Below the pieces are notes generated by a model that saw only the letters and a program-made list of their open reading frames with translations, did not search any database and was not told where the DNA came from. A program made the translations under genes and the position numbers. Positions 13,902 to 61,745 of a DNA stretch of 64,000 nucleotides are shown here, piece after piece (position 1 is the first letter of the stretch; every line of letters begins with the position of its first letter). Source of the stretch: Brachycybe producta (Eukaryota; Arthropoda; Diplopoda; Playtdesmida; Andrognathidae); contig JAUPFP010000007.1 in the NCBI GenBank assembly GCA_036925085.1, forward strand, positions 563,501-627,500. Reading direction: 5' to 3'.

Positions 13902-15377
13902 ATGATGATGGATCAGGCGGCTCTTGTGGCCTCCATGGCGTCTAATAATAATAATAATCCTCCTTCATCAACGGAGACGTTGTCCAACGCAACCGCATCC
14001 TCCTCACCTTCGGTGGCGGTAGCAGCGGCGGCGGCGACCGGCGGTCAGCAGCGATTCGCCGTGCTCAGTTACGAACAGGTGAACAGATTGGATAAAGTGA
14101 TGGACGCTGTGGTTCCGATCCACGGCAGAGGAAACTTCCCCACTTTAGAAATCAAGCTCAAGGAACTGGTTCAAGTGGTTCGAGCCAAACTGGAAAGAGA
14201 CGGAGTGAAAGTGCGCGACATGAGAGTGAACGGTGGAGCCGCCAGTTACATTTTGGCGTCAGACGGCGCCCAACAACCGTACAATGACCTGGATTTGATT
14301 TTTGCTGTCGATCTCTCTACTCAGCGCCACTTTGAACGAGTCAAAACAGCCGTTCTCGAGTCGTTGCTCGATTTTCTGCCCGAAGGCGCCAATAAGAAAC
14401 GTATTTCCAGCTGTTCGCTGAAGGAGGCTTACGTACACAAGATGGTGAAAGTGACGACGGAAGGAGACAGATGGAGTCTGATTTCATTGAGTAATCACGG
14501 AGGACGGAATGTAGAGCTGAAATTCGTCGACACGATGAGGCGTCAGTTCGAATTCAGCGTCGATTCGTTTCAGATCGTTCTCGATTCGTTGCTTGTCTTC
14601 TACGAATGTGCCGAAATGCCGATGGCCGATAATTTCTACCCGACTGTTGTCGGAGAATCGGTTTTTGGTGATTTTCACGAATCGCTTTACCATCTGAACC
14701 AGAAATTAATCTCGACGCGTAATCCGGAAGAGATACGCGGCGGTGGTTTACTCAAGTATTGCAATCTGTTGGTGCGCGGTTACAAAGCGGTGAGCGCCGT
14801 CGAGATCAAATCGCTCGAAAGGTACATGTGTTCAAGGTTCTTCATCGATTTCAGTGATTTGCAACAACAACAACACAAGTTGGAGAATTACTTGACGAAC
14901 CATTTCGGTCTCTGGTCCGAAGTGGGTGGGGGAGAGGGACAGGGAAGTGGTGGGTCGTTGGAAAACGAGGAAGAAGAGGAGGGGGTCGGCGAAAGGTGGT
15001 GCCTCACTTACGATTACCTGATTACCCTTTATCGGGTCGTCGATGAATCCACAGTTTGTCTGATGAACCACGAAAGGAGACAGACACTGAACCTGATAGA
15101 GGAACTCGCCTGTCAAGTTTACTTCCAGGAACAACACAGATTGTATCAGAAACAACAACAACATTCTATTTCTCCTCAATCGGTGTCATCGTCCTCATCG
15201 TCTTCGTTTAATCCGATGCATCATCATTATGCAAACGCTTTCTATTACACTCCGTTCGTCCATCCTCCTCCTCCTCCCCCCCCTTCGAATCATCATCATC
15301 ATCATCATCATCACCACCCTCCTCCTCCTCCTCCTTATTCTCACCACCACCATTACGCTTGGATGCCGTGTGCGTAA
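13902..15377 (+). CDS. TENT5: TENT5/FAM46 family non-canonical poly(A) polymerase
   Basis: A single uninterrupted coding exon of 491 aa. The nucleotidyltransferase core is clear: [20 protein letters not shown], the helical-turn motif [10 protein letters not shown], and the catalytic acidic pair in [10 protein letters not shown]. Conserved blocks follow: [53 protein letters not shown] and [18 protein letters not shown]. The protein ends in ...WMPCA, as vertebrate members end in a similar W-x-P-C. TENT5 proteins extend poly(A) tails and stabilise selected mRNAs, many encoding secreted proteins. Two stretches look lineage-specific: a Gly/Glu-rich insert near residue 350, and a Ser-, Pro- and His-rich tail before the C-terminus. 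I chose the ATG at 13902 (MMMDQ); the frame stays open upstream to a GTG at 13872. A 5' exon adding residues is possible. Confidence 0.93.
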
Positions 15378-39468: not shown

Positions 39469-39999
39469 ATTTTAAAACAAACAAATTGCAATTCGGCGTG
39501 TCTTTTTAAATATGACCAAATGTCGTCTGCTTCATTTGTTATAGTTGCACAGAAGCCAGATAGATGGCAGCACCTACCGTTGCGAAATTAGTCGCTAAAT
39601 ACTTTTTTTTTTGGCGGTGGCTTGTTGTGTTTTTAGGATATTTTTTTGACCGCTCTTGTCCGTATTCAGCAACAAAATGTATTGAATGAATTTACAAACT
39701 CCTGTATTGTTTTAACGCCAAACGAAACAAGCTATATCATTTTGTGATTGCATTTACATGGTTTTGTGAGGTAAAAAGCAAAAGACGAACTTGTTTTTTC
39801 GTCGTTTCCACCGTCTTCGCGGTAACATCGTCTTCTCACCCATCCTCCTCATCGGCGGCCGGTTCTTTGTGGTCCTTCTTGCGTTTTTACGAAACCTGCA
39901 ATGACGTTTCTCTTTCTTGTTGTGTCCCTTCTCAGTTAATATTAGTGGCGTTTTATTTTGACAGGCTCTGTTGTCTCTTTCTGGGATGAATGAACGTCT
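39469..39999. promoter_or_regulatory. Shared divergent promoter region of PITRM1 and ZUP1
   Basis: 531 bp separate the two start codons. A CTCF-like core TAGATGGCAGCACC lies at 39561-39574, close to the PITRM1 side. An acceptor-like TTTTGACAG at about 39955-39963 suggests a spliced 5' leader for ZUP1. Confidence 0.5.
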
Positions 40000-42453
40000 A
40001 TGACGATGGCTGAAAGGCTGCCCACTTTGTATTACTGTTGCGAGATCTGTGGCCAGGAAGGGTTAAGAGACGAAGAGATGAGGTCACACATGCTCCTGGC
40101 CCACATTGAAGGGGCCGTCTCGTGCCCTTTCTGCGATCTCACTGATATATCTGCTGACGATATGCTCATGCACGTCAACGGCGCCCATCTGGACTTTCTC
40201 AGTCCCGATAACGAAATGACTTCGTCGTCAATAGATCGTCAACGCGTAGTTCAAGGCCAAGAGGGAGGAGGAGGAGGTGGAGGGATGGTGGGCTCTTCCA
40301 AGGAGAACGATGTCGGGGCGTGCGGAACTTCAAGAACCAACAGAAACTATGTCTTTTTTCCATCTTCTCGTGCGCCTTCTTGTGATGACAACATCGAATC
40401 GCCGAGGAGATCAAGGTTAAGTTTAGATTTGAGGTCGGTTCCAGATGGTCGCAGCTCAACGCATAATGGAATTTCGTCGACTGAGATGAACGGACAGACG
40501 TTGGCGGCTGAGGAGGAGGAGGATCAAGTGGTAAATTGCCCGATATGTGGCCGAGAGGAGACGTCGCCGGCCAAACTCGAGGAACACGTCAACCGGCGTC
40601 ACTTTGACCTGACAAGCCCCTCCTTTCCCGCGTCTCTCTCGCCGATCGATGGAGTGGATGGCGTCTTTCGTTGTCCACTGTGTATAAGACACTTCCAATC
40701 CGGTTCTGACCTTGAGCTTCACGTTAACATGGAACACAGGGACATTCTGAGTCCGTCCAAAACGCCGAGGTCGACTCCAGGAGATGAGAACTCTAATCAG
40801 AGGTGTCCAGTATGTGATCTGGCCGGTTTCGGTAGTGCCGTCGAGATGGCCTCGCACATCGAAGAGCATTTCGAGAGGAAACCGACTCTCGCCAGTCCGG
40901 AACTTTTGACGGGTGGGCGATTGATTGTATCGCCATTGTCCGTTAAGCAAATTTAATCAAATTTAAAATTTGTTTTAGATCTGTCCGCCGATTCCCTTCT
41001 TGCTCAAGAGATCGAGAGGCAAGAACACGAAGCGCGAAAGTTGCAGGAGCAGAGAGAGTTTGAGCTGCTCAAGGTTGAAATTTTATTTTCTCTATCGCAT
41101 TTTTCGATCACTTTTACAACTATTTCGTTGGTTTCGACATCAGGCACAGTATGGAATGGATAACAACGGTAGCTTCCGGGATCAGAGCATCAAGAACATG
41201 CAAAAAGCTGTTTATTCTGGGGAGATGTCTGTGGCCGATTTCTATAACAGACAAGTTGAGTTGAGGGTGGCTGAGATGAACGGCGTGGACGACGGTCACT
41301 CTTGCTCCAAAGGTTTGGGGTGGTCGGCCATCGATAGTTCTCCTTCTTTCGTTTTATTCGTGGCATTTTCATTGCAGACCTAATTCCAAAGATCAGGGCA
41401 ATCAGTTTGAGCACCAACAACAACGTTTTAGCCGTTTGGTTGTGCACGACGGTCGATCACTACGGAGCTACGTACGGAGACAAGGGTTGGGGTTGTGGCT
41501 ACAGGAACATCCAAATGATGCTGTCTTCTCTCATGCACAACACCAAATATAACGAGAAGCTTTTCAATGGTAAATTTTCGGTGGCTGATTTTAGAAAAGT
41601 TTTTTTTTGGTCCGAATTTAGAGAAACGATTTTGAATTTTTTGGTTTGAAAGGGGAGAATTCTGTTCCCTCCATCTCTAAAATCCAGGAGCTGATCGAAT
41701 GGTCTTGGAGGAAAGGTTTTGATCCTCAGGGATGCGAACAGTTAGGAGGAAAGTTATGTAATACTCGGAAGTGGATCGGAGCCACCGAAGTGGTCACGTT
41801 ACTCTCTTCGTTCAGGATAAGGTGTTTTTCGATCGATACGTATTCGACGGCCACCTTATGTGTTTTTTTCCCCCTCGTTAATTGTTTGGGTTCGCTCCTG
41901 ATTCGTAGGTGTCAGTTAGTGGATTTCCACTGTCCGACGGGTCCGGATGGCACTCACCCGGAACTCTTTCAGTGGGTTGCAGACTATTTTAAAAAACAGG
42001 AAGATTTTAAAGCGCCTTTGTATCTTCAACATCAAGGTTTGGCTGATTGACCGATGAAATGTAAAATGATCTTTTGGAGACGATCCTTTTTGGTTGGTTA
42101 TTTCTATGAAGGGCACAGTCGGACCATCATCGGAGTGGAGCATCTGAAGGACGGCTCCTATCGGCTTCTTGTCTTTGATCCGAGTCACAACAGACTTCAG
42201 ATGGAATACTTCTCGAGCACCGTGAGTGCCGTGAACGGGATGAGACTCGTGAGGCGTCCACTGAGCGTCATGAAGGCCAGACATTATCAGGTGGTCGCGG
42301 TATCTGGTATTCTCGAAACGGAGCAAGAATTCCAGGTAACCAATTGGTTTTCTGGTTAGTTCTAAGGCATTAGATAAATCAATCTCACCTTTCGTTTCTC
42401 TCTGTTAGCGAAATAAGATACTTCGATCGATTCGAATTCCGAGAGAACCGTAG
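40000..42453 (+). CDS. ZUP1: ZUP1 (ZUFSP): zinc-finger K63-specific deubiquitinase
   Basis: Eight exons: 40000-40912, 40979-41073, 41144-41312, 41378-41569, 41653-41821, 41909-42036, 42112-42335 and 42409-42453, giving 644 aa (human 578). Exon 1 carries five C2H2-type fingers: CCEICGQEG..., CPFCDLTD..., CPICGREE..., CPLCIRHF... and CPVCDLAG.... The first four have the family's H-x(3-4)-H pattern, and the fingers are separated by Ser-rich linkers. A charged alpha-helical arm (exons 2-3, LLAQEIERQEHEARKLQEQR) precedes the C78 papain-like peptidase. The active-site Cys is in DKGWGCGYRNIQMM, the His in QGHSRTIIGVE and the Asp in LLVFDPSHN. ZUP1 cleaves long K63-linked ubiquitin chains in genome-stability pathways. 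I end exon 1 at the GG|GTGGGC donor because it restores phase; the open frame runs 13 codons further into the intron. Divergent from PITRM1. Confidence 0.93.
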
Positions 42454-43377: not shown

Positions 43378-43609
43378 ACTAGCGTCTGGAGGCTTGAGTT
43401 TTTCCATAGCGCATGCGCATTCTCGGTTGGTTTGTATAGGAAAGTGATGGCAAGTGAAAACTACGGTGGCCCTTATAAGACGTGGGCAGTTTCCATTGGT
43501 CATCAATAGATGGCGCTGCTAACGCAAATCTGCCATCACTTTCCTATACAAATCAACCGAGATGGCAATGCGCATGCGCTATGAAAAACTCTAAACTCCA
43601 AACGCTAGT
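43378..43609. mobile_element. 232-bp MITE with ~75-80-bp TIRs and 9-bp target duplication
   Basis: The element begins ACTAGCGTCTGGAGGCTTGA and ends with the mirror CCAAACGCTAGT. The arms match for about 75-80 bp, including ATAGCGCATGCGCATT and TTTGTATAGGAAAGTGATGG, with one 5-6-bp gap. The 9-mer GCAACAAAA flanks both ends directly (43369-43377 and 43610-43618), a textbook target-site duplication. Long TIRs with a 9-bp duplication fit the Mutator-like (MULE) superfamily better than hAT (8 bp) or Tc1 (TA). The interior carries TAGATGGCGC and no ORF. It lies 366 bp before the RNF17 start codon. Confidence 0.88.
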
Positions 43610-43975: not shown

Positions 43976-45673
43976 ATGATTAAGAGACGTAGTTTTCAAT
44001 TTCAACCGACGTGTCTGTCGTGTAGGAGGAAGTTTGGACTAAAAGGTAAAATTAAAAGCGGCGGCGGCGATTCAGTTGAAAAATAGCCTCAAATACACCC
44101 ACTTGTGACTACGCATCCTTAGACCCTAATGTTAAATGACTCAGTGTAGCGTCTACGAGGTGCCTGATTGTATTAGAGGCTATTTTGTAATCTTCGTTTG
44201 AAACAAAAGAAGATACACGAGTTTATTCGTTGTTGTCAACCGACAGTTGAGTAACATTCGTTTGTTGGTAGATGCCAAATCTACCAACGAACGAACGTTA
44301 CTCAGCTGACATGCATGCTTCAAGGTTAGGCTAGGCTACCAGCGACCAAACCAATGGTTAAACCCACCTAGGAGAGGTAGAGCCCCCTACCACACGGCCC
44401 TGGAGCTGATTGCTCTCGTCCTGAGTTGCAATATATCTTTTTTTTTATTTAAAGAAGATCCCAGGATGTGAGGCTCACAACTTCCTCGCTGATGAACGTC
44501 TACATTCTGAGCTTTTTTGTGTGTCTTTCAGATAATATTTACCAAATAGCAGCATCTAATCCGGTACTGCTTCACTGTGGTCATTCCATTTGCTGCTCAT
44601 GTTTTGTTTCGTTCGGTCACATGCAGAAGCCCGTTTCGTGTCCATTGTGTTCGGTGCGACCTCTTTAAAACTTTCCCTTAAACGTCCTTTTTTATTTTTG
44701 GTTTTCTTTTTTTTTTGTGAGTTCAGGAAATAACACTGGTCGAGGGCGAAGGACAAATCGAACTGAATATTTACATCCTCGGTAATCTCTACGAGAGCAG
44801 GAGATACCACAAGAACTCCTGGTGACGTTTGCTCTTCTGTCTCTCTCTCTGAATTTACACGAACTAACCCTCTGTTTCTCTCGCATTATTTCTAGTTACA
44901 GTTATAATGTTCGAATGGTTCCCGCACACACTCAAGCCCGTTCCAACGGTCCTGTCGTTCCACATCCGCCCGGTTCGTCTCATGACCTGTTTTCGTTTTC
45001 TCATTCCGTTTCTGTAGGAGTGTTTATTTTTTTGCTGTATTTCTCGTTTGCAGCCATTTGCGCAAACTGTCACAAAACGGCCAACCTTGTTTGTTCTGAC
45101 TGCGGGAACAAAGCCATGTGTTCCAATTGTTTTGCGATCGTAAGTTTGAATGGTGTTTTAGAACCGAGTACAAAAGGTACAAAAGTCACAATGATATGTC
45201 GTTTTCTGTTGTTTCTCGGTGACAGTTTCACAATCAGTGTGGATTGTCTCGTCACCAGTACAAATCTATTGGAGGACAAGTGTAAGAACCATCGATTACC
45301 GCTCCGACTTTGTGGTTGCCAATTTAACCGTTTGGTCTTTTTCTCTTTCTCTCTCTCTCTCTCTCTTTGTCGCTCAGTGTTCATTCGTTGAAATGGTGCC
45401 CGAAACATAGTAACAAATTGTTGGAATATTATTGTACGGTGGACGAGGAACGTATCTGTGGTGACTGTCTTGCAGTGGGTGATCATCAGTCGCACAAAGT
45501 TGACAGATATTCAGACCAGGTTTCTTTTTTTCTTAATAACCGCGTTTAGACGTATGGAACAATTGGGAAGGCTAATTTCATTGTCATTTCAGGTTAAGAA
45601 ACTCGTAGGAGACGTTGAAGAGAAAGTGAAGACGATGCAAAAAACCAACAAATGTCTAAAACGCAGCGAACAG
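43976..45673 (+). other. RNF17: RNF17 exons 1-8: RING finger, B-box-like zinc region, start of coiled coil
   Basis: Exons: 43976-44045, 44532-44653, 44727-44821, 44896-44972, 45054-45139, 45226-45281, 45378-45519 and 45593-45673 (243 codons, all phases match). RING: CLSCRRKFGLKG, then LLHCGHSICCSCF and KPVSCPLCS; exon 1 supplies only the first Cys pair. A first B-box-like region reads ICANCHKTANLVCSDCGNKA and MCSNCF...FHNQCGLSRH. A second reads WCPKHSNKLLEYYCTVDEER, then ICGDCLAVGDHQSHKV. VKKLVGDVEEKVKTMQKTNK begins the coiled coil. Whether the RING retains E3 activity cannot be told from sequence. Intron 1 holds the hairpin at 44244-44308. Confidence 0.85.
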
Positions 45674-45750
45674 GTAGGACACAAAGCAAGAGACAACCTT
45701 CTTCTTCTTCTTCTTCTCTTTTTCAACTTTTCTTTTGTTGCCTGGATTGC

Positions 45751-45782
<32 letters not shown>

Positions 45783-48700
45783 TTCAACTTCTACGTTTGA
45801 AATTGCTTCGGTCCAAATTCAAGAGAGAAAAACTTCGCATTTGAACTTCAAGTTGAACGTCTTTTGGATCCTGGGTTCAGGAGAGTTAGAGTTGAAGTTC
45901 AAGTGCCTGGTTTCCATATTTTGAATGTCAGCCACTTGTCATTGAGAAAAAAGTAAAGATTTTTTTTAATAAAAACGTACATTTATTTATTTAAACTTAA
46001 AACAATTAGGAAAATATATTTACAAAAGGTTCGGTTAGGTTAGAAAATGTACAGAAGAATCGCTTTTCTAAAAAAAAATAGTGGCTCCACCACTAAAGGG
46101 AGCCGTCGTTTCATTTTATCATTAGATCTAGTTTGTAGAAGACGGGTTTAATTATTTTTGCTGGCTTAAGTCGTCCTTTTTGCCATTGTCGCTCCACTGT
46201 CCCATCTCCAGTAAGATACGGCTCGTGCCCGGTTTGTAAGATCCCCCTTGCGCCTGCGCCTGTTGATATGCAGGGGATACATCCACTCCAGGCGGACTAG
46301 TTGACGATCTGCTTGCGATGGGGGAGTAGGTGGTTGTCACGGGAACCGGAGATTGATACTGAATCTCGTATGTTGGGTCACTGGACGACGGATTTGTCTG
46401 CGAGAGAGAACCGCGAGGATTTCCTCTGTGTCTGGGTCTTAGTGAAGTTCCGTAGTTGCTCGTAGAAGTCTGGAAGTAGTGTGACTTTGTGATAGCCGAA
46501 ACTCTGGGTGGAGGTGCCACTGTTGTGTGAAAGGGAACCTCCGAAGATGTGACGTAGTTTGGAGCTGTCACGCTCGAAGGGTATCCTTTGTGACCCGTGT
46601 GAAAGCCTGGCGATGGGTAGCTGTCTTGGTTTGCTTGAACAGAGGATTTCCCCGTCGTTGTCTCTGCTCGGTCGTTGTGGTTTGGACTGTTTACTGTCGA
46701 GGCTCGGATCGTTGATGACATTGGTCTGTAATCCGGCAGATTCGGGTGTGTCTGTGGTAGACGATGTGAAGCAGCAGGTGACAGTTGGTGTGGGTGAGGC
46801 GTGCTACTGAATAGTCCAAAAGGCTTTGGCATGTTAATCGGGCGTGGAGAAGTGGGTCCTGGGATGCGTGGGAGACCAAAGGTGGAGGGGGGTGGTGAAG
46901 TGGTTGTTATTCTCGAGATGGGGGAATCGGTGTTCATTAAGTGATTCGATGTCAAAGAGGGAGAAGAGGTGGAGAGGACGAGGTTAGGATCAGACAGAAT
47001 TTTTGGGAAGTCTCTTGTGTAGATGAGGCTGTCATCTTTGTTTTGACTTGGAATTCCAAAGTGACTTCGGTCTAGTCCAAGATTAGGAGTAGGAGGAGGA
47101 TGAAACGGCGGTGGTCGGGCAAACGAATCAGGTCCCCCGAAGTTTCTAAAGGGAGAGATTGGGGACGGAGAGGAACCAAAATGAATAGGAGGTACATCAG
47201 GAAGGGACTGAGGATGAGAATTATGGGAAGCAGTAACAAAAGCTGGAGACTCGGACGCCGCCTGTGGCTGTTGTTGACTCTGTGAGGCCATGGGGCGGGC
47301 GGCGGGCTTCGTTTCAGGAAACTGTTGGAAGTTAGGCGGTGGTGGTCTCGGAGAAGGGGGGGCACGAACAGGAAGGACATCAATGTTTTGAGGTGGCGGA
47401 GAACTGGGATGGAAGCCTCCTCCTCCTCCTCCGTTTTGTAAGTTTGGCGCGGACAGGTGATTTTGTTGATGCATCGGTGGAGGGGGTTGGAAGGTAGGTG
47501 GTGGTGGACCTGGGGGTGGTAGGTCGTGGAGTTGTTGGGGGTTTGGTGGTTGAAAGGGGTGGTGTTGAGGTGGAAATCGTGGTCTCTCGTGAAACTGTTG
47601 TTCCCTTTCACGCTGTTCTTGGAATCTTTGCTCTTGTTGATCAATTTCAAATTTGACTGGATGGGCGCTTGGAGAAGGCGATGGACGAGGATGGAACTGG
47701 TCATTGTTATTGAAAGGCATGTTGTTGTTTGGATGTGGTGGTGGCCCTCGTTCGTTGTTGTTTGGATGTGGTGGTGGCCCTCGTTCGTTGTTGTTTGGAT
47801 GTGGTGGTGGCCCTCGTTCGTTGTTGTTTGGATGTGGTGGTGGCCCTCGTTCGTTGTTTCCATTGCGAAAGGGAACGTTTTCCATGTGGCGCCCTTGCTG
47901 GAATTGAGGATGAGGTGGCCCATTTTGATGCATTGGTGGAGGAAAATCTCTGTTGAAAGGTGGCGGTGGTGGCCGACTAGGGTCGGGGCCCTGATTATTG
48001 TGTTCCATTTGAGGTGGTTGGTTGTGAGGATGCATGAAAGGACTGTTTGGAAATCCATTGGGAGGGAGCGGTGGTAGCATGAGATGTAGGGGAGCCCGTT
48101 GGAATCCTTCTTCCGGTCGTTTGTCTCGTTGGGCTTCGTTCTGCTGCTGTTGCTGCTGCTGTTGATCTTCGTTGTTGTTCTTCGGACGATTTTTTTTGCC
48201 CCCTTTCTTTTTTCGATTTCTTTCTTTTCTTCCTCGGTTTCTGTTTCGTTTGTTGTCTTTGTCTTCCTCTTCGTGGGGTTCGTTGTGGTTGGGAAGAGGT
48301 CCACCTGTGGGGGACACTGCAAAAATGTTTGGTGTGGAAAACTGCGTGATAGGAAATGGCACGTTGTTTCCAAACGCGTTCCCTCCAAAGTTTCTTTCCA
48401 CAAAAAACGGCCTATGTGGGTGAAACGGTGGACCTCCTCCTTCTCCTCCTCCTCCGTGAGGTGGTCCCATAAACATGGGTGCTCCTTCCGAGGCCAAAGC
48501 CAGAGGTCCATTGTTGTTAGATTCTCTCGTTCCTCCCAGCTCTCCATTATTGGGGATGTTTGGCCCTCCGAGAAAAGATGCGGGAACCGGGTGCCAAAGA
48601 ATGTAACCTGCCGGTAATGGTTGGGGTTGAAGGGAGTTTCCCATCGATGGAACAGCTTCTCTTTTATTTCCTGAACTTCTTTCCGTGCGAGTTGAGTTGT

Positions 48701-51607
48701 CGCCATCCTCTTCATCCACCGCTTTAATGATGGTCACATTGAGTTCAGTCTTGTTTTCGTTGCCAATCTCTACAATTGGCGATGTCAACTCTGTTACCGT
48801 GAAATTATCAGCGGCGTCGGTATTTCCGTCATTCACGAGCGGCAAATCGGTGACGTTCACTTCCTCTTTTTTGGACATCAGCTTGCCTTTAGAGGTGGTC
48901 GCCTTCGGTGGTACGGTTGTTACAGCCTTGATGGTGGAAGGCGTTTTCTTTGATACCGCCGCATATTGACTTGCTTTAAACTGGGGAGCTGGCGTCCCTC
49001 GTCTGCCGTCGCTGTTTCCGTTCTCGCCGTCTTGGTGGTTTACGCTATAACTGGCGTCTGCCACCACAAAAGACGAAGAAGGATCGATGGACTCGTATTC
49101 GTCCGGGTAGCCAAAGAGGGCGGCCAACAGACCACGTGGTTTTCTTGCCTCAAATTCTGCGTCACCACTGACGGCCACGACTTCATCGTTGGCTGTTCGT
49201 TCTTCCGGTTGAACCTCGGCCGTGACGTCATCGTCATTTTCGAGGCGTTCGGACAGTTGTATTTTATCTGCAATCTCTTCATTGCCATTCTGTTGGGCTG
49301 ATTGAACGACGTCCTCATGGTTTTCAATCCGTTCGGACAGTTGTAGTGGAGCCGTAATCTCTTCCTTGTCATTCAGTTGAGCTGATTGAACGATGTCCTC
49401 GTCGTTTTCAATCTGTTCGACTGGTCGAACTTGAGCCACTTTATCTGTTACCTGTGATTATGGCATTTGCAAAAGATATGATTATTGATCACAAACGGGT
49501 GGTGGTGGTGGTTGTTAGAAGAAGTTAGGAAGTGACTTACGTCCTCTGCATGAATTGCTGGTACTGTCGATTGCAGAACTTGCAGTAGAAGCACGAATAA
49601 TAATAGTCCTCCTGCTAATAAATCATTAATAATGTTAGTGATCGGTAATCGATTTGTCAAGCTTAGGAAGAGAGAGAGAGAGAGGGAGAGGGAGAGAGAG
49701 AGAGAGAGAGAGAGAGGGACATTTGGATATACATACCAGCCGAGGATGAAGCTCGGCGGCGGCTTCTTCGTTCTCCGCCCATGTTTACTTTCCTTGAGGC
49801 ACCGTTCTCAGCTTTACTAAATTGGTTCCTCGTAAAACTTTTTTTCGGACGATTGCCGACGAATGTATCCACTTTATGTAAGATGACGATTACACTTAAC
49901 TTGTTTCATGTGTTTTCTTTTTTACTGTGGTGGTGCATTGTGTTTACTAAGGGTATTTATATACGGTGGGACAGAGGAGGGGAGTGGCCACCACCATCAT
50001 CATTATTCGGAGAGATCTGGGTCATATCCCAGTACATCATCATCGTCTTCCTTGATTCGCGCCCACTTCGGTGGTCGGCCGCCAAACCTAACGGCAACCA
50101 CCATCACCTAAACAAGATCCGTCTTTCTTTTTTCATGCATATTATTCTACCTGTCATCGTTTCGGTTATTGGCCGCATTTTATTAATCACAAAAGAGAGA
50201 GAAGAAAGAAGAAGAAAAAAAAAAATAAAACAGGGACGAAATAATGTTCTAAACGTGTTCGTTCGGTCGTAGCCACCGTTCTCCTTTTTCTCTCTCTCAA
50301 AGTTCGTTGTTCCGATTCTTTCTCCTTCGTCGTCTTCTCACTCTTTTTTTTTCTTACCTCACCCCCCCCCCCCCCAAACAAGAAAAACATTGACATACTT
50401 CTTATTTCTCCATGATTTACAGATGAAAAATGTCAATATGATCGCGATATCAGATTGGGATTTAGATTAAATCATCTTGAAATTCATCTTAATTCATTTC
50501 AAATTCGATTTGAGGATGTTACAAAATGCAGCATTATGATGTTCGGACCAATGAACCAATAATAGTCGTACAGTGACTACTCCAAGTCTCTCTTTGTTTC
50601 TAATGTCTCTCTTAATTATTGTTTATTGTTTTGTGCGAACTCTTTAATTTCGGGTTTGGTTGACTGTGTGTGATGTCTGCCCTTGTCCTTCAATGTGGGG
50701 GAAGTTGTTCTCCTTGACATTGACACTCGAGCAGCTCGTACCAATTTATGGCACACTGGCACACTTCGTTTTGAGGTTTCTGTCCTCTTTTCTGTCGTCG
50801 TTTTTTTTTTATTATTTGTCGTTTTTCTTCTTCAAATAATTGAATTTCTTATGAATTCCAATGATGTCCAAATCTAGTTTAGTAGTTTTTATTTTTGTTT
50901 CAAAAACAGTGTGTCTTACTTAAATCGTTCCTCATATTTTAAGGGGGTTCACTATCCTCTCTCTCTCTCTCTCTCTCAGTTGTTGTTGTTGTTGTTATTT
51001 TTGAGGTCATTTACCGGTTGTTGATTTTGAAATTTGAACTAGTTTCCTCCTCTTCAAAGGGTGTGTTTATTGTTGTCTGGCGTAATTCACTGCACTTCCC
51101 CAATATTAATCCTCCTCCTCATATTATTTCATTCGGAGGACCATCTGTAATCTTGTTTAATTCTAATTAAGTTTACTTTTATGTCTAATTGTTTTTAATT
51201 AACTGTGAAAGTAGGTGAAGGGGGAGTTTAGTAGGAGAGAGAGAGAGGAGGAGGTGGAGGTGGTTCTTCGCTTTAATCCGTTTTTTTCCCCCCCGTTCAG
51301 TTTCGTTCCGACTTTTTGGCGAATTTCATGATCTTTTTTTTTTGGTTTTATTTAAATTGAACGACCTTTAATTAAGTCATTTTCTTATTAAAAGTCTCGT
51401 GTTTTTTTTTTTTGAAAATTCACCGGAATTTTGAAATGGTTCTAATTTCCACCCGCCCTCCTCGTTGCCTTCCATTCCCCACAATTCTTCTTCTTCTTCT
51501 TCTGGTCTTGGCATTGATTTTCAGTTGCAATGTGTTTAGCCTAGAAACCTTGTTTTTTCTTCCGTAATAATAATTTTTTCATTTTCTGAACTCTAAATAG
51601 AACGTTT

Positions 51608-51641
<34 letters not shown>

Positions 51642-54600
51642 GGCTCGAATTCCAATTTTTTTAAAAAAAAATTAGCTGCACGCACCCAATACTGTCCCCT
51701 ACACCCAATACTAGCCTGTGACAGAGGGACAAAAGTCCAATTGCAGCATGTGAAATGCATTGTCAAAACTCACAGATAAAAACCTAATAAAACAATAATT
51801 GCAAGTGAGTATTATAATAAAATCCATTGAATTCAAATAAGTTAAAGAATATAAAACATTTTTATTAATCGTATTATGTACAGAAAAGTTTAAAAAATGA
51901 AATGTTTTTGAACATTTCCTGTTAAAGTGTGACTGGCCCCATTAATTTCAATTTGCCTCCGTTCTGTTTTCCCCTTCTTTGACGATGCTTCCAAAGGAAT
52001 CGTTCCCGATCGCATTGCAGTCGTCTTCATATTTCGGCTGCGTCCGAATATGAAGAGACCTCGATGTCCGAGGAGGAGGCGGAGGTGGACTGTTCCTTGT
52101 GGAGGTCACCATTGGCGCCGTAGTAATTGGGCGCCTGTCCACAGTCGACGTTGAACCACCAGTCGCAAATGAAGTATGCCTGGTTAAAGATGGTTCCTTT
52201 GGGGCACAAGAAACTGTCTTGTCGTCCGTCCACGTCGCAAACATGAAACACCTGAACACAAAATCTACAATTAAAAAAGTGGCTACGCTTATAAGTTGGT
52301 TTTTAAAGGTACCTGACATCCAGCCTCGACGTCGGCGTAATAGCCGGGATGCTGATGATTATAACAGTAAAAGGTTGTAAGTGGGACGTAAGAGTGGCTC
52401 GGATAATCCACACCTGGTGTTCCGGGGACCGTATTGTAATTGATGTGGGTCTCTAGTTGTTGATGAGAAGAAGGAGGAGGAGGAAGAAGAGGTGACGCCG
52501 ATGGTGATTTGACCTCTCTACCGTTGACCTTCTTTTCATTCTGTTCATATGCTGGTTGTTGTGGCTCCGTTGGGATGTGTTGATGTCCACTTCGTGGTTC
52601 CCTGTAACTTTCGACATCTACGACGTCATCGAATATTTCGTAATCTTGTACGTTACTCCTACTCTGGTCGGTTCCAGTCGTCATCTTGTTCACATCGTGT
52701 AAACCGTTTACTTCGTCATTACCACCACTGTTGTACTCGTACCGAGAATGATGGTTTTGGTATTCGTCAGAAGGATGGGGTCTCCTCTCGTACTCTCGAA
52801 TGGGGCGGAACTCCACCTCCTCCGCCTCCTGAAATTATCACAAACCCAAACTCTAAACATAGAGAGACAGAGAGAGGGTCTGTTGTATAATTAGAAATGG
52901 ATGTCACTTACCAGTGATGAGGATGAGAACGAGTGACATATTCGTATCGAACCAACGTAAACTGCGATAGGAATCAATGATAAACGCGGGAATTTCATAA
53001 ATGATAAAATTGAAAATATCCTTGAACTTACCGAAAATGCTGAAACAAATTTTCCATAGATTCATGTTTTGTTTGTCTTTTGTACATACATACGTGAATT
53101 CAACTGGGATGTTTTTTCGGTTGTTGTTGTTGGGATGTTTTCCTCCTGTGTTTTCTTTCTTTCTTCTCTTCGTTCCTTTTCAGGATGAGCCACAAACTTC
53201 ACTGAACTTGAAGATTCCAATTCCCATCCATTTTTATATGTGAAAAGAGGCGTTTCCACACCTTAGTCATTTTTTTTTTATTTCCAATTTTTTTTTTCCC
53301 ATGTTAACATTATATAATGTATAATGATAATAGTAAAGAATTTGTTGTACACACACGGGGTTCATCGTTGCATGGCGTTTTTTCCAATGGGTTGGGTCAT
53401 TGCTTCTTCTATGACACCCAAGTTTGCTCGAATTGATTTCTGTAGGGAGAGGGGGGGGGAATTTTGGTGGTCGTGGTTTTCACGTTACCCTTCATTTTAG
53501 GTGTTTACCCCGCTGATTTATAATATGGCATATTAATTTTAAGAGTTGCGTGTGTGTCCCAAACTGACAATTAAATTTTTAAGTAATTATTTAGTTTCTA
53601 GAACCGTTTCAGATCGGTTTTCGTCGCACGATGACGCGTGCTCGTAATCGCTGACCTTCTCTTACTGGGAGAGGCACGATGGCCAAAAAACCAATTGAAA
53701 TGACCGAAAATAAAGAGTTGAACCATTTGGCGCTCATGTTTTCATGGCTTATTTCGTTTTATTTCTTTCTAAAAGTATCTTTTGTCAACGATGAAAGAGT
53801 CGAAGGATGCAGACGATAAGTGCATTGAACAGATAAGGCAACATTTTCAATACCTTCACGGCATCTTGCAGAGAAGGTAATTGTTGAGGTTTTTTTTATT
53901 ATTGCGTGTGTGATTTTTATCCTCGGATGATGAGGAGGAGGAGGGATGTGGTTTTTTGCGTGACTTCTTCTTTTGATCTTATTATTTGTCAGAGAATCTT
54001 ATTTAATCGGTCAAGTGCAATCGAAGGCAGAACGCGTACAAAACCAGATGAACGCAGTGGCAAGTGGATTATTAAACCGCTTCAATTTGCAATTTTGTGA
54101 AGCCGAAACTCTTTCTTTCTCTTCTCGTTTTGTAGCTTCACCAAATTCAAGATAGACGGGGACAATTGTTATGCCTATTATCAGGTTTAATAAGTAATTT
54201 TTACCTCTTTTTCGATTATGTTCTCATTTTGGGTGCTCTCTTTGAATGTATTAGACGTGAAATCTCACCTGAATACGACTGGATCACATCCTGATTCCGA
54301 TTTCATCTATGAAAAAATACACGAATTTTCCGACAGCGAATGTTACTTGGACTCCAACGTGTTTGCTCTCGAGATGTTTTCCTCAAAGTTCGTTTTGCTC
54401 TCACGTATTCTTCTGTGAATTCAATTTACACTTGTTTTTTTTTTTTGAAGGTTTGATTTGTGCGAATCTGATCTCGCCGTCATTTCAAATTACGGGAACT
54501 TGGTGGTGGAACCGGAGATATCGTACGGACTTATATTTTTTTTGTATCTCTCTCTTTGGGTGGTCCTTTTGAGAGAATTTTTTTCGTGTGTAATTTGAGC

Positions 54601-57600
54601 AGTGATTTGAAGTTGCTGTCTTCGGACCAAGTGGACGATTTGCAGCTCGACGACATAAGCGACGACGAAGTGGACGAAGGCGTGCCAGGTGACGCATTAA
54701 CAATAAATTATTTACGATGATCGACTTAAAGTGGGAGTTTATAGTTTCCATTGTTATTACAGAGTTGGAGCTTTTATCGGGACATTCCAGTGACGAATCG
54801 AGCCAGTCTTTCGTGTCTACTGTGAGTCAGGTCAATGGTTTTGTTCCTAGTGTATCGAGCGCGTCTTCCGTATCGTCGGTGATTCGTCCACGCAAATCTA
54901 GACAAAAGAAACGGCGAGAGATTCCACCGCAACCTCGCCCTTTGGTGTCCAACCGTGTACCGAAGCCACGGCAATTCTCCACGAGTCAGTTGCTCAAAGT
55001 CTCGCGTCTTCTTTGTTTGTCTAAGATGAATTGCATTCTCTCTCCCCTTGTAGTGAATCAGGAATCGGTGAGAGTCAGTCACATCTGCAATCCGGGAGAA
55101 TTTTACGTCCAACGCAAACGTGACGAAACGACGTTGAGTAAACAGGAAGCCAACATTAAGGAGTGCTGCCAACGTGATAAAATTCCTAGTTGCGTGGATC
55201 CGGATCACATTCACATAGGTCAGGAGGGAGAGTTTTCTACTTTTATGCCGTCAGTTAGAGATTTTAAGATTGGTTTTCGAATGATTACGGCGATTAGGAG
55301 AGTTGTATCTTGTGTATTACGGCATCTCCAAGTTGTGGTATCGAGGAAGGTTGATGGACTTAATTCAGGACGCTAGCGACAGCCGCAGTAAGACAATGTA
55401 CCACGTCTTCTACATCGATTACGGCAACTCTGACTACGTTCCTATCGAGCTGTGAGTCGTCTCCGTTCACCCACGTGTGGTGTCTCCGCGGATTATTTTG
55501 AACCCGTTTCTTTTCTTCTTAGATTAGCCACTTTACCTCCTTACTTTGCTGATCTGCCACCTTTTGCCATCCGATGTTCTCTGGCCAGCATCGATCCCAT
55601 TGATAAGGTTCGATTTTGAATCTCTCTTATGGACATTTTTACGTTTATTGCAAGATTAATTAATTAATTATTGTTTTGTCTTCTAGGACGTTGGATGGAC
55701 GCGGGAATCGATTACAACGTTTGAAAAGTTTGTCCACAATAATTTTATCAACATGACGGTGATCAGTTTGCATATTTTCTTATGATGATGATGATGATGA
55801 TGATGATAAAGGTTGGATTTTACTCGATGGTGATTTCTTCTTAGGTATTCGACCGCAATGCGAACAATCTGCTAGTCGACCTCGGCGAAGGTAATTATAA
55901 CGTGTTAGATCCAGACAATTCGACTCCGTTGTCTGTCCGTGAGGCACTCGTGTTTTTGGAATTGGGTTGTTTCTCCCATTCGGAAGGAGCCTTGAATAAA
56001 AGCTCTTTCTCGATGCCGGTCCCGTCTTGTTGTAAATTTTATAAAAATACGTTACCTAAGATCGATACGACCACAGAGGTGTTGGTCAACTACTCTGAAA
56101 GTCCCGATTCATTCTTCATTCAAAGGGTATTGATTTACTAAACGGAGAAAGGAGCCTTTCTGTTACGATAATTGTTAATTTTCCACTTTTAAAGGTCGAA
56201 GATTTTTCGACTGTGGAAAAGATGCTGGCTGACTTGCAAACGGCTTATAAAAGTTTAAAGCGGAACGTGGGAATTTGTAATCCCATTGAAGGTATTTGCG
56301 TCGTGAGGCGTGACGATGGCCGATTATGTCGTCACTAACGGTGTCGTTTTTGTACCCAACCAAAAGGTTTACCTTGTGTTGCTAAAAACGACGATGGATT
56401 GTGGTACAGAGCTCGTGTGTTGGGTTCACCTGGACACCGTCGTATCAAAGTGTTTTACGTGGATTACGGAGACACGGACGAACTTCCGCACACAAAAGTC
56501 AAGGCAATAACTTCTAAATTTCTCAAGAATCCCGAAATGGTGTGTCTTCCCCAACCTACTGGAAAGAACGTTGTTTTGACTTTGTTTGTTATTTTTCCCT
56601 TTTAAGGGTTTTCATTGCAAGTTGGCCGATGTTCTTCCAGCGGACGGAGGGAAGAAGTGGCCGTTAGAGGTGAAGGCGAACTAAAGACGACTGTCAATCT
56701 TTATTTTCTCACTGGACATTGGGTTTTTTTATTTCTAGGTGATCGAATATTTCAATTCTTTCATAAATAGAAAGATGTTGAAGTTGCATATCGTAGGTGG
56801 GTTAAGTGTCGAGGTGAGCGTCTAATCCGACTGTAACCGGTTTGTCTGTTTGAAAACAGGACACGTGGAACAGAGTTTGCTTGTAACAGCGTATACGACC
56901 GAAGATTCGCAGAAAATGTGCTTGAATTCCGATCTAGTTCGTAAAGGCTTTGCCATAAGCAGCGGTCCATGGTTTCTCTCTTTTTCTGGTTTCTTGTCTC
57001 GCTTTCGAGTCGAATGTTTTATGAATTAGTTCTTTTATAGTTCGTCGACGACGGTGCATGTTCGCAAACAGAGTGAGAAAGAAGATTCCGACATGACACC
57101 ATTGCAACCCAATTTGAACCCGAAATGGCCGGAAAATCCTGCACCCAAAGTTACTTCGATCGTAAATCCGCCTCGTAACGCAAAAGGAGAAGCCCTTTTT
57201 CACGTCAAGGTACATGTTTCCGAGATTGTTTCTCCCGCTGCCATCTACGTCCAGTTAATTGAAAAGAACGAGGAATTTCAAAAGTACGAAAACTGAGAAT
57301 TGTGGTTGGGCGAAGAGGCCAGACGAGAACACTTAATATGTTGGGTTTTTTATCTTTTGGTTAGGTTGTGTTCGGGCATTCGGTACATCTATGAGAAGAG
57401 CAAACACGTTGAGAAAGAATGGAACGTGGACGATATGTGCGTCGTCCAATCGAACGAAGATAAACAGTGGCATCGGGCTGTTGTCAAAGAAGTTGTTTCG
57501 AGTAACGAGCTCAAGGTCGGTCTGAGCGCATAACGGATTTTTATACACAAGTCGAGGCAAGATATTTCTGAATGAAGAAACCCCTGATATCTAGAAAGTT

Positions 57601-60520
57601 CAATGAGGGAGGGGGTTTTAGTTTTCATGGGCATTTTGTCCTCGTGCCTAGAAACGCTTGCTTGATTTGAGCATAAAAATCCGCACTAGTGTCGATCTTC
57701 ATTGATTTTCGTTTGTTATTTACTGAACGCGGCTAATTGTGACAGATGTTTTTGGTCGACTCTGGACGCACTTTAACCGCTTCTTGTAATTCATTGAGAG
57801 CAATCTCCAGTAAGTTTCGAACGCCTCCATACTTTGCTTTCCGTTGCCACTTTGTGGAAGTTCTGGCTCCAGGTGGTACCGAGAAGTGGCCCTCAGTCGC
57901 CACGGAGAAACTCTCTGACATCGTTAGGAAACACGACTTTTTATATCTCACCAAATTGGAAGATTTTGAGGTTACTTCGTTTTTGTCGTTGTCATAATTT
58001 CCTCGTGTTTATAGTTTGGTTTAAACAGTTTGAAGTTCCGTCACACGACAGAGAATCGTTTCCCGTGGATCTGTTTTACGAGGAGGTAACTGTGAAAGGA
58101 GCTTTGGATCCGATGACGACTGAATATCATTCATTGACCGAGATACTGTTGGAGGAAGGATTGGCTCTGCCGTCGAAAGCGTGTGTAGTTGCAACTTCAC
58201 TTCGTTCGAATGTCCTCTGAGGGAATTTCTTTTTCACTTTTCAGTCGTCGGAGGAACCGTGTACGAAGAACTTCAGTTGCGGACGCTGAGTCGGAATCCG
58301 TTGCTTTGGGAGGATATTTCAAGTAATTTATTATTTGTCCAGAGTTGAAAGCTGTTCTGAAGTGCGGTTACTTTGTTTTTTAAATATTTGTTTCAGTTTT
58401 GAACCGGCGGCCGACGAATCCGACGACTCGATCGTTTCTATAGGATTCGTTGAAGCCAACACATCAAAAGAAGTTTCGTCTAAGTCGCCTCAGCGTTCGA
58501 CGGAAGCACCGGTCCTTCCGATTGAACAGTGGGCTCCTCCTAAAGTTCCCAATCGTGCCGGTCATAGGTTTGAAGTGTTACCGACGAACGTGACGATGGA
58601 GGGACTCATTTACATGCACGACACGCTTAGCGGTGAGTTTCCCTTCCGTTTTGTTCTACGTAAACGTTTTAACGTTGATGTTTTTAATTCGTTTGGATTT
58701 TATCGTGCAGCATCTTTGTTGCTCACCACGATCAAGAACACTTTGAATTCAAAGTACGCGAACAGTTTACATAGTGCCCGCGATCTGTATTGGGCTCCTG
58801 GTCAGGCTTGTGTGGCCCAGTTCGATTTGGATAACTGTTGGTACCGTGCCAAAGTCATCAGCGTTTCCGACAAAATCAAGGTGCTCGTCTTCGGTCCAAA
58901 TTCCACTCGAAAGCGTCCGATACTTTTAACTTGTTTTTTTTTCCCGTTAAGGTGACTTTCATCGATTACGGGAACGTAGAGGATGTTCGACCGGATCAAC
59001 TGCGTAAAGACATTTGCTTATTGCATTACCCTCAGCAAGGATACAGCTGTCAACTATTTAACGTTGCACCTGTGCGTATTTAAAAGACAAGTTGAGATCT
59101 TTGACGAGTGTAATTGATTTAATTTCGGGGGAACAGGTGGACGGCGACAAGTGGCCAGTGAGCACACTCACTTTGATCCACAAAATCATAGTGGAGCACA
59201 AATGCTACGTTACTATTGTGGTGAGACAAACAGAAAACCACTAAGGTCTTTGTAAGAAAAGAAAATGACGTCATAATTCAAACTCACCGACCCCCCCCCC
59301 CCCCCCATCTTTCCCGCACCGCCGCAATCGGCACACCTTATAATATTTTCTTTTCTTGCGAGACCTATAGTATGATGCTCAAATCTAACGATAATTTAAA
59401 TGCTGTTGTGGTTTAACTTAAAAGGTTCCTGGAATAGATGAACTTCCACCAAAAGTAACCATCGAAGTTAATGAAGGAACGTTTCTGAACGATCAGTTGG
59501 TCGAAATGGGGCTCGCTCGTTCTCTTGACGAAAGGCCCTCGTCCCTCTCCTTATCTTCGCAACATTACGTATGTATTAACATTCACCAAACGTCATACAT
59601 TTTTAAGAGAGACTCTTTTAGGATCTAGGTTTTATGGAAGCCTATGTTCCCGACGTCGGATCGATCGTTTCCATCGAAATTACAGCAGTGATGAGCCCCA
59701 CTTCGGTGAGATCACAAAAAAATGTGGTGCTTATTATAATCTACTCAATTAAAAAGCAATGCCAAATTTTAGTTTTTCGCGCAAATTGTTTGTGTGGATG
59801 AAGAGGAAACGACGGCGATGATAAAATGCCAGAACACCATGAATTCGTTAGCAAGTGAATGGCCTCGTGTTACGGAACCAAAAATCGGTACAGTCGTCTT
59901 TGTACTCTATATCGATCTCATCTTACGTGTTCTAACAACGTGTTCCTTCAGGTGGTGCTTGTTGTTCGCAGTTCACAGAGGACGATACTTGGTTCCGTGC
60001 CGTCATTGTGGACGTCGACAACGAAAAGGAGGAATCGGTGACGGTGATGTACGTGGACTATGGAAATAAGGAAACGGTGAACGTCGACAGGTGAACGTAT
60101 TGTCTCGTGTCCAGCGCCACACAAATCGACGATAATCCTTCGTTATTTACAAACAGGATCAGACAGATTCCTCCCGAACTTATGCTGATGCCCAAACGGG
60201 CGTTTCAGTGCGAGTTGTTCCAAGTTTCTCCAGTCGACACTTGGAATCCGGAGCTGGAGAACAAACTGCGTCAAGTGCTCGATGATACCGATAAACAATA
60301 TTCCATCCGAGTCGAGGCAAGTCTCTCGATCGTACGTTCGTTGTCATATTTCTTATTGCAACATTTGTTCCAATTTCTACAGGAGATGAGAATTCCAGTG
60401 CAAGTGGATCTGGTCGTTTTCCACAACAATTCTGAGGAGCCACAACTAGCGTATCAACACCTGGTAGACGAAAACCTTCTTAAACTAGTGAGAAAAAAGA
60501 CTTGGGAAGAAATTGCGTAA
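43976..60520 (+). CDS. RNF17: RNF17/Qin-like RING, B-box and multi-Tudor piRNA-pathway protein (whole gene)
   Basis: I read the RING/B-box exons 43976-45673 and the Tudor exons 53776-60520 as one gene of about 40 exons and 1,650 codons (human RNF17 is 1,623 aa). The join is supported three ways. Exon 8 ends and exon 9 starts in phase 0. The coiled coil continues smoothly across the junction (CLKRSEQ, then YLLSTMKESKDADDKCIEQI). The domain order RING, B-box, coiled coil, Tudor array is that of RNF17 and Drosophila Qin/Kumo. These proteins sit in nuage and shape heterotypic piRNA ping-pong by binding methylated Piwi proteins through Tudor domains. The connecting intron (45674-53775) hosts two complete genes on the other strand. 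The alternative is two separate genes, but the first half then has no convincing 3' end and the second no start. Confidence 0.8.
44244..44308. repeat. Near-perfect 30-bp hairpin with 5-nt loop in RNF17 intron 1
   Basis: Arm 44244-44273 (CAGTTGAGTAACATTCGTTT...) is the reverse complement of 44279-44308 (...GTTACTCAGCTG) at 27 of 30 positions. In plus-strand RNA two of the three exceptions become G:U pairs. The loop is GCCAA. No flanking duplication is apparent. Confidence 0.85.
45982..45987 (-). terminator. Poly(A) signal of the nested proline-rich gene
   Basis: TTTATT on the plus strand gives AATAAA on the minus strand, 165 nt after the stop codon at 46152. The transcript would thus end inside RNF17 intron 8. 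Confidence 0.55.
46152..49782 (-). CDS. Secreted proline/asparagine-rich repeat protein, nested in RNF17 intron 8
   Basis: I do not recognise a family. Three exons, 49737-49782, 49541-49614 and 46152-49451, give 1,139 aa. The N-terminus MGGERRSRRRASSSA plus GGLLLFVLLLQVLQSTVPAI and HAED is a basic region, a hydrophobic core and a cleavage site, so a secreted product. Then come three degenerate copies of a 24-residue acidic unit (QLSERIENHEDVVQSAQQNG...), a KR-rich patch (NKRNRNRGRKERNRKK), a polyQ run, four tandem 11-residue NNERGPPPHPN units, and a long Pro/Ser/Thr/Asn-rich tail. There are almost no cysteines. The composition suggests an extracellular matrix, cuticle or mucin-like protein; this is inference. 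It has its own candidate TATA box and poly(A) signal, and its neighbour in the same intron is a chitin-binding protein on the same strand. A 547-codon open frame in another frame comes from composition. Confidence 0.82.
47722..47853 (-). repeat. Four tandem 33-bp coding repeats
   Basis: Four units at 47722, 47755, 47788 and 47821, almost identical at the DNA level, encoding NNERGPPPHPN each. The lack of silent differences points to recent expansion or homogenisation. Confidence 0.92.
49668..49717. repeat. (GA)n microsatellite in intron 1 of the nested gene
   Basis: An AG/GGAG tract of about 50 bp between coding exons 1 and 2 of the proline-rich gene. On its sense strand it is a CT tract beside the acceptor of exon 2. 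Confidence 0.9.
49954..49963 (-). promoter_or_regulatory. TATA box of the nested proline-rich gene
   Basis: The minus strand reads TATATAAATA, about 170 bp upstream of the ATG at 49782. This supports the nested gene having its own promoter inside the RNF17 intron. Confidence 0.5.
49964..51860. other. Spacer between the two nested genes
   Basis: About 1.9 kb without a supported gene. It contains poly-C at 50362-50375, CT microsatellites at about 50958-50978 and 51610-51640, and a GTT repeat at 50980. A 64-codon plus-strand frame at 50683-50877 begins SFNVGEVVLLDIDTR; it was considered as a retroelement remnant and not accepted. Confidence 0.45.
51861..51866 (-). terminator. Poly(A) signal of the nested chitin-binding gene
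   Basis: TTTATT on the plus strand (AATAAA on the minus), about 160 nt after the stop at 52027. Confidence 0.55.
52027..53065 (-). CDS. Secreted protein with a C-terminal type-2 chitin-binding (peritrophin) domain, nested in RNF17 intron 8
   Basis: Four exons: 53032-53065, 52912-52961, 52313-52828 and 52027-52251, giving 274 aa. The start MNLWKICFSIFVYVGSI is a short signal sequence. A charged, low-complexity Tyr/Asp/Ser/Pro-rich stretch follows (EFRPIREYERRPHPSDEYQN). The chitin-binding domain is complete with six cysteines: FYCYNHQHPGYYADVEAGCQ, FHVCDVDGRQDSFLCPKGTI, FNQAYFICDWWFNVDC. The aromatic FNQ..CDWWFNVDC core is typical of arthropod peritrophins and cuticle proteins. The likely role is in cuticle or peritrophic matrix. 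The intron splits the domain after the second cysteine. I chose this two-small-exon 5' end because a start at the simpler ATG (52949) would break phase. Candidate TATA box at 53231. Confidence 0.85.
53231..53238 (-). promoter_or_regulatory. Candidate TATA box of the nested chitin-binding gene
   Basis: The minus strand reads TATAAAAA about 165 bp upstream of the ATG at 53065. Motif and spacing only. Confidence 0.4.
53776..60520 (+). other. RNF17: RNF17 exons 9-40: coiled coil, linker and five Tudor domains
   Basis: Exons: 53776-53876, 53993-54056, 54136-54184, 54255-54387, 54451-54522, 54603-54688, 54763-54984, 55054-55218, 55298-55451, 55523-55607, 55687-55758, 55845-56126, 56195-56291, 56367-56539, 56607-56669, 56739-56796, 56860-56964, about 57041-57283, 57365-57515, 57746-57970, 58029-58180, 58245-58322, 58397-58632, 58711-58880, 58952-59071, 59137-59220, 59425-59568, 59622-59705, 59773-59887, 59952-60090, 60157-60316, 60383-60520. 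Tudor cores: 1 LWYRGR...YIDYGNSDYV; 2 LWYRAR...YVDYGDTDEL; 3 QWHRAV...FLVDSGRTLT; 4 CWYRAK...FIDYGNVEDV; 5 TWFRAV...MYVDYGNKETV. The joint 56964/57041 is out of phase by one base as drawn and needs another splice site or a missed micro-exon. The exon 10 donor (GTGGCA) is weak. The last intron uses a GC donor and is stop-free. Confidence 0.88.
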
Positions 60521-61082: not shown

Positions 61083-61745
61083 TTATTTTGACCGAGTGAG
61101 TATTTCACAAAATGCACAATTGTTTAAGTTAAATAAATATACAGAGGTACAGTACTGTGCCCACACACTCCCTTCACTTCTGGGTCGTGGTACCACACTT
61201 TGATGACACTTTCTATCATTTTGGGTTTTCGTTGTGCAATCCATCTTATATATGCGTGTTTTAATAATGGCCCACAAATTTTCAATGGGGTTGAGATCGG
61301 GTGAATTTCCTGGCCACTCCAATACCTTCAAATGTTGCTGGATGAAGAAGCTCTTAGCAAGCTTAGAATTGTGGCATGGAGCCAGATCTTGTTGAAATAT
61401 CCAATCACCACTGGGAAACAGCTTCTGCATCGTTGCTATTGTTTGCATTTTTGCTGTCCATTTCTTCAATGGGGTGAAATGTTTGTGGCCCAGAAGCTGT
61501 GAAACATGCCCTTAGGCAATGCCGTACATGATGTCTCCACTGGTCTTCTTTGGGTCTATGACACTAATTCTTTGAATTAGACAATCATCTCTAGGGGTAG
61601 TTTTTCTTTTTCTTCCACAATGTCTTTTACGGGATGTGTTTAGGGGGCCTGTCTCTATGCAGCTTCATGAAATGCTGGATTTCCCAAGTGTTTTCACCTA
61701 AAGCAATTATTTTAGCTCATTTACGAGGTGTGATGTCCATGATGT
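61083..61745 (-). pseudogene. Decayed Tc1-like transposase
   Basis: Read on the minus strand. The N-terminus at about 61740 reads MDITPRK, stop, AKIIALGENT, resembling the start of the Tc1 helix-turn-helix region. The best block (61083-61469) has the DDE-domain signature: WIFQQDLAPCHNSKLAK, then LKVLEWPGNSPDLNPIENLW (PGNSPDLNPIENLWAIIK is the classic Tc1 C-terminal motif). Several in-frame stops and frame changes between these blocks, including a TAA in GIA-stop-GHVSQ, make it inactive. The middle third is largely lost. Terminal repeats were not defined. Confidence 0.85.

Follow-up and report, generated by a model that had tools for sequence, protein, structure and literature searches.

The locus described here raises a question of gene boundaries. 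On its plus strand, a coding half with a RING finger and B-boxes is separated by 8.1 kb from a half with an array of Tudor domains, and two minus-strand coding sequences lie between them. The halves might belong to a single gene, with the minus-strand genes nested in one of its introns, or they might be two neighbours with other genes in the space that separates them. We favor the first answer, with a probability of roughly 0.88: one RNF17/Qin-type (TDRD4) gene, whose 8.1-kb intron 7 houses two independent opposite-strand genes for secreted proteins. The initial annotation had proposed such a host with two complete minus-strand genes in one large intron, and this arrangement is well supported by the sequence. 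An exon-by-exon rebuild keeps the frame open. The window, i.e., the whole stretch of 64,000 nucleotides that was analyzed, is free of N and covers positions 563501-627500 of contig C7 in a 295-Mb genome of 442 contigs. Within it, the host gene occupies 43976-60520 (plus strand), and its intron 7 (45674-53775) encloses the minus-strand genes A and B. Provided that this intron is real, both nested coding sequences (46152-53065) lie within it. The parts of the host are as follows.

43976-45673, plus strand: 5' half of the host, exons 1-7, with the RING, two B-boxes and the start of the coiled coil (residues 1-204)
43976-44045, 44532-44653, 44727-44781 and 45054-45139, plus strand: exons 1-4, from splicing and frame
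45226-45281, 45378-45519 and 45593-45673, plus strand: exons 5-7, from splicing and frame
45674-53775, plus strand: intron 7, 8,102 nt, phase 0, GT-AG
53776-60520, plus strand: 3' half of the host, exons 8-38, with the remaining coiled coil and five Tudor domains (residues 205-1640)

Spliced both by hand and with a script, the host runs from an ATG at 43976 to a stop codon at 60518-60520 in 38 exons, and encodes 1,640 amino acids with no internal stop. This is close to the approximately 1,650 codons claimed earlier. The exons that flank 45673 and 53776 are indeed both in phase 0, as had been stated, but they are exons 7 and 8 rather than 8 and 9. Our guess is that the earlier numbering counted a candidate exon of 53 nt at 44896-44948. 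We rejected this exon, as it would break the frame into the exon of B-box 1, while the model that omits it stays open. The other 36 of the 37 introns measure 53 to 486 nt. All 37 acceptors are AG, and 35 of the 37 donors are GT. The two GC donors, after 54059 and 60316, both read GCAAGT, and the former might be replaced by a GT donor that lies 3 nt upstream. When each site was scored against the host's own remaining sites (leave-one-out), the donor of intron 7 ranked 18th of 37 and its acceptor 7th of 37. Intron 1 contains a hairpin (44244-44308) whose 30-nt arms are 90% complementary.

The translated protein has a C3HC4 RING in which all eight ligands are present (C13, C16, C39, H41, C44, C47, C60 and C63). 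Among known structures, this RING matches that of TRIM32 (3.7e-6), and TRIM3 is also matched (1.6e-8); the best-scoring Pfam RING models, at 0.0026 to 0.0087, all fall below their cut-offs. The zf-B_box model matches two stretches (7.2e-12, using residues 1-286), and the TUDOR model matches five (1.4e-114), with five sites of the form [VI]D[YS]G. Four of these sites contain DYG, and the third Tudor domain (57746-57766) has VDSG, which suggests that this domain may have lost its ligand cage. The B-boxes are followed by a coiled coil, whose assignment depends on the inferred junction of exons 7 and 8. The corresponding model, TRIM_CC, aligns to residues 204-271 below its cut-off (0.0029 with residues 1-286, and 0.015 with the whole protein), and is outscored by an unrelated model, MitMem_reg (residues 152-235, 0.0012). 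The claim that the order of domains is that of RNF17 thus holds: RING, two B-boxes, coiled coil and five Tudor domains are found in one frame.

A RING followed by B-boxes and a Tudor array is the layout of vertebrate RNF17/TDRD4 and of fly Qin/Kumo. Mouse Rnf17 is given as the counterpart of fly Qin/Kumo in one paper (PMC4269861). RNF17 is absent among the 20 matches listed for the first 691 residues of the 3' half. By analogy with these proteins, the host is probably a germline gene of the piRNA pathway.

Another Tudor-array gene, or genes, may lie in a cluster on the same contig (C7:1327591-1336326, minus strand, approximately 0.7 Mb from the window), which has long open frames and holds 9 of the 28 Tudor matches listed for the genome. 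Closer to the host, an inverted repeat at 43378-43609, with arms of 27 and 32 nt that are 85% and 97% complementary, ends 367 nt upstream of the host's ATG and may represent a small mobile element close to the promoter. Directly upstream of the host and on the same strand (39994-42359) is a gene that we take to be ZUP1/ZUFSP-like; it has C2H2 fingers and two pieces of Peptidase_C78, of which one exceeds the cut-off and the other falls just short of it. A piece of a DDE_3 transposase, presumably Tc1/mariner-like, is found just downstream of the host (61083-61511, minus strand). Elsewhere in the window, a nucleotidyltransferase is encoded in a single open frame (13860-15377, plus strand; NTP_transf_7, 4.6e-154), and is presumably of the TENT5/FAM46 type. 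An Rfam scan of the window gave no matches at the gathering score.

Whether the two halves form one gene depends on the junction of 45673 with 53776. The initial annotation united them mainly by comparing phases. The phases do agree; however, this carries less weight as proof than it might seem. Agreement in phase 0 alone is approximately a one-in-three event, and of the 101 acceptors with a pyrimidine-rich tract in 45740-53900, 10 also yield an open phase-0 exon. For that count, an exon of at least 25 codons with a donor-like site was demanded, a rule that does not recover exon 8, the frame of which is closed at that exon's donor. As 10 other acceptors do likewise, we set the phase match aside as the main proof.

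Three other lines of evidence outweigh it, namely an alignment to TRIM proteins, the presence of only one 5' half in the genome, and the contents and splice sites of the intron. In the alignment, residues 136-261 of the joined protein match residues 111-235 of a TRIM3 chain (8amr_A; 126 versus 125 residues), and the match runs across the junction between residues 204 and 205. The total score with TRIM3 is 37.3 bits for the joined protein, 32.6 bits for the 5' half alone and 29.3 bits for a control in which the 5' half is followed by the first 82 residues of the 3' half in reverse. Over the segment of B-box and coil, the scores are 32.4 bits when joined and 24.3 bits with the 5' half alone. Five TRIM72 sequences give 23.2, 22.8, 21.8, 19.4 and 19.4 bits when joined, 22.4, 22.1, 21.5, 16.9 and 16.1 bits with the 5' half alone, and 19.3, 19.9, 18.4, 16.6 and 14.3 bits with the reversed control. 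It is important to note that the gain from joining is small, at approximately 5-8 bits for TRIM3, and smaller still for the TRIM72 sequences. A TRIM25 chain (4cfg_A, residues 135-271, E 0.0096) appears among the matches solely when the true join is used, while TRIM25 chains consisting of the RING alone are listed for joined, 5'-half and reversed queries alike. One coiled coil, PCR5 of 9ya0, favors the reversed control (19.9 bits, versus 17.8 bits joined and 12.7 bits for the 5' half alone). The continuous coiled coil that had been claimed is therefore supported by an alignment that spans the junction; however, the gain is small, TRIM_CC is sub-threshold, and PCR5 prefers the reversed sequence.

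The genome offers the second line of evidence. All nine matches to residues 1-286 (E up to 0.01) are at this locus. This search was conducted exon by exon, with the 12 best candidates scored, and among these best candidates no second RING/B-box half was found in the 295-Mb genome. Consequently, neither half has another candidate partner in this search. The genome search also gave no retrocopy derived from the host's spliced mRNA, which would have been proof of splicing. As to the contents of intron 7, the six open stretches of at least 30 codons that score best on its plus strand all face the nested genes, in a scan that would not register shorter exons.

The following features bear on two different ways of reading the same DNA.

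53791-53793, plus strand: in-frame ATG within exon 8, a rival start codon, in the context TCAACGATGA; an in-frame TAA is just upstream of exon 8
45842-45973, plus strand: possible end of a short isoform, with a stop (45842) and an AATAAA (45968) reached by reading through exon 7

The first possibility is that a RING/B-box gene ends within what we call intron 7 and a separate Tudor gene begins at the ATG at 53791, so that the secreted-protein genes lie between two neighbors and are not nested at all. The ATG is in frame and has a fair start context, and the read-through of exon 7 ends at a stop that is followed by a polyadenylation signal. Moreover, the coil of the 3' half alone matches no TRIM structure: with its first 82 residues as a query, none appears at E up to 10, and the best match is gasdermin-E (0.0098). 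However, two genes would split a TRIM-like coiled coil mid-way, the long intron has splice sites of average to good quality, and a RING and B-boxes combined with a Tudor array form the known RNF17/Qin architecture (for the pairing of Qin/Kumo with Rnf17, see PMC4269861). We therefore regard two neighboring genes as very improbable.

The second possibility is compatible with a single gene: it would encode both the full-length RNF17 and a shorter RING/B-box form polyadenylated within intron 7. The same read-through stop and AATAAA would serve as the end of the latter, and long introns can permit such polyadenylation. Nonetheless, AATAAA occurs approximately 0.9 times per kb on the plus strand, so that finding one within 300 nt is unremarkable, and we consider such a short form unlikely. 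Taking the sequence evidence together, the 5' and 3' halves very probably belong to one gene.

The first of the two genes enclosed by this RNF17/Qin-type host, gene A, is of the chitin-binding CPAP1 type.

53065-53032, 52961-52912, 52828-52313 and 52251-52027, minus strand: gene A, CPAP1-type chitin-binding, 4 exons, 274 amino acids
53233-53238, minus strand: TATA-like site of gene A, 173 nt upstream of its ATG, with another at 53316
51861-51866, minus strand: AATAAA of gene A, 161 nt past its stop

The predicted protein contains exactly one CBM_14 (peritrophin-A) stretch (residues 187-237, E 1.6e-10), whose six cysteines, by inspection, are spaced C-x15-C-x5-C-x10-C-x12-C-x7-C. Near its N-terminus is a hydrophobic 11-mer, CFSIFVYVGSI, which begins at residue 7 and has a mean hydropathy of 2.0. 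In having one peritrophin-A chitin-binding domain, gene A resembles the CPAP1 family of Tribolium (PMC3504105). This CPAP1-type family would also suggest that the animal is an arthropod. Its relatives in the genome amount to 48 exon-level matches, 2 of which are gene A itself. We fetched 15 loci from the 48 matches, and dropped L009 and L017 because they are gene A, which leaves 13 paralogous loci. In 10 of these 13, the domain is interrupted directly after Cys-Gln, as it is in gene A, the exceptions being L010, L011 and L021. Apart from gene A, the top-scoring locus is L010, with 53% identity to it. Because 10 of the 13 loci are interrupted at the same place, gene A appears to be an ordinary multi-exon member of the CPAP1 type, and the common position of the interruption rules it out as a retrocopy.

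The second enclosed gene, gene B, encodes a proline-rich protein.

49782-49737, 49614-49541 and 49451-46152, minus strand: gene B, proline-rich, secreted, 3 exons, 1,139 amino acids
49956-49963, minus strand: TATA-like site of gene B, 179-181 nt upstream of its ATG
45986-45991, minus strand: AATAAA of gene B, 161 nt past its stop

Proline makes up 15.6% of this protein, and cysteine is absent. A 33-nt unit within the gene (47721-47858) is present in 4.2 copies that are 100% identical; by its sequence, this repeat would have expanded recently, and it is perhaps polymorphic. Nested genes of a cuticle or matrix type had been proposed. This description is supported for gene A alone, which has the CBM_14 match; the long exon of gene B has no Pfam match at E 0.01.

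Given these properties, it could be asked whether gene B is a gene at all, or instead a long frame that stays open by chance on a strand of biased composition. A chance frame would explain why the long exon matches no Pfam family, why no second match to residues 16-340 was found in the genome, and why there are low-complexity repeats. Its mean coding score is 0.11 bits per codon, which is lower than that of some short plus-strand stretches opposite it (0.39 and 0.32). (An earlier mean of 0.27 was partly circular, as the training set included part of gene B and all of gene A.) However, the open frame of 1,101 codons totals 119.7 bits, the highest value among the intron's 158 open stretches, using codon scores trained only on the host gene. 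In addition, its N-terminal segment is strongly hydrophobic and is joined to the rest through phase-compatible introns, and both a TATA-like site and an AATAAA are present. We thus judge a chance frame to be rather improbable, and genes A and B both look real from their sequences. We also disfavored the combination of A and B into a single minus-strand gene, since both possess a separate ATG, a hydrophobic stretch at the N-terminus, a stop and an AATAAA.

A candidate TATA box and poly(A) signal had been claimed for each nested gene, and we recovered them at 53238 and 51866 for gene A and at 49961-49963 and 45991 for gene B; no TATA-like site occurs in the interval 49784-49900, which is nearer to gene B. 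Because the minus strand of the window has 1.2 TATAWA and 1.7 AATAAA motifs per kb, these sites are only suggestive, and each on its own is weak.

The setting had also been thought to be one for transcriptional interference or antisense pairing, both of which are hypothetical. The stop of gene B is 478 nt from exon 7 and the ATG of gene A is 710 nt from exon 8, and no nested coding exon overlaps an exon of the host. The predicted TATA and AATAAA sites would also keep the nested transcripts off the host exons. With no overlap of exons, the mature mRNAs are expected to have no stretches complementary to one another, and any pairing would be limited to the pre-mRNA. We envision that the host would be transcribed in the germline, with the entire 8.1 kb removed as one intron, such that splicing would join the RING/B-box half to the coiled-coil/Tudor half. 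The nested genes would run from their own promoters in cuticle-forming, epidermal or other secretory tissue. Transcriptional collision would be possible only if the host and nested genes were transcribed in the same cells. We infer the splicing of intron 7, the separation of tissues and the absence of interference.

Nesting on the opposite strand is a known and common arrangement of genes, of which the present locus is a clean example. The textbook case is Gart-Pcp in Drosophila, where a gene for a cuticle protein is nested antisense within an intron of a host to which it is unrelated; this host and the cuticle family differ from those studied here. Approximately 6% of Drosophila genes are nested, often on the opposite strand (PMC3786989). 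The same source describes the pair tim2-2mit of Drosophila and honey bee, in which, as in our locus, a protein gene on the opposite strand of an intron seems functionally unrelated to its host (PMC3786989). The nesting of that pair occurs in both fly and bee and is not kept in four lepidopteran species, and its genes are unrelated to the present ones.

A closer parallel might be Drosophila qin/kumo itself. We take CG14306 to be the other half of qin, besides CG14303, in which case CG14304 and CG14305 would sit in a qin intron. In published tables, CG14303 is equated with qin, with TDRD5 given as the human counterpart (PMC10864285), and is called TDRD4-like (PMC3654919). Other papers place CG14304 among genes for chitin metabolic process (PMC6053765), label one tardigrade sequence a homolog of CG14304-PA (PMC2835947), and describe CG14305 as a testis-specific kinase (PMC10164148). 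The fly and the present locus are therefore alike in their RNF17-type host and in that the chitin-related CG14304 is numbered between the halves CG14303 and CG14306. The kinase CG14305 is also numbered between them, which may be a point of difference. In the literature covered, we found no statement that places CG14304 or CG14305 within qin, an absence that says little given the limited coverage, and no paper linking CG14303 with CG14306.

If this structure of qin is right, a chitin-binding gene is found in a corresponding intron of the fly and of the present animal. Common descent would be the natural guess, because it would be strange for two such genes to have entered the same host independently. 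The counterweight is that genes of the CPAP1 type are numerous. By this analogy, it is conceivable, at somewhat less than even odds, that the nesting of a CPAP1 gene, antisense to RNF17/Qin within its coiled-coil intron, goes back to an early arthropod (or panarthropod) ancestor and has survived in distant lineages. If the arrangement is ancient, something would have maintained the pairing, e.g., regulatory DNA of the cuticle gene that is inseparable from the host intron. Alternatively, the germline and epidermal programs might have to exclude each other at this locus.

A practical consequence is that gene finders are likely to split an RNF17/Qin-type host in two. Drosophila qin was, we believe, likewise split in two by annotation. 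Beyond annotation, if qin hosts the same cuticle gene across several arthropod classes, these loci would provide a natural test of chance versus constraint in the persistence of nested pairs, and also of how germline and epidermal genes share one stretch of DNA.
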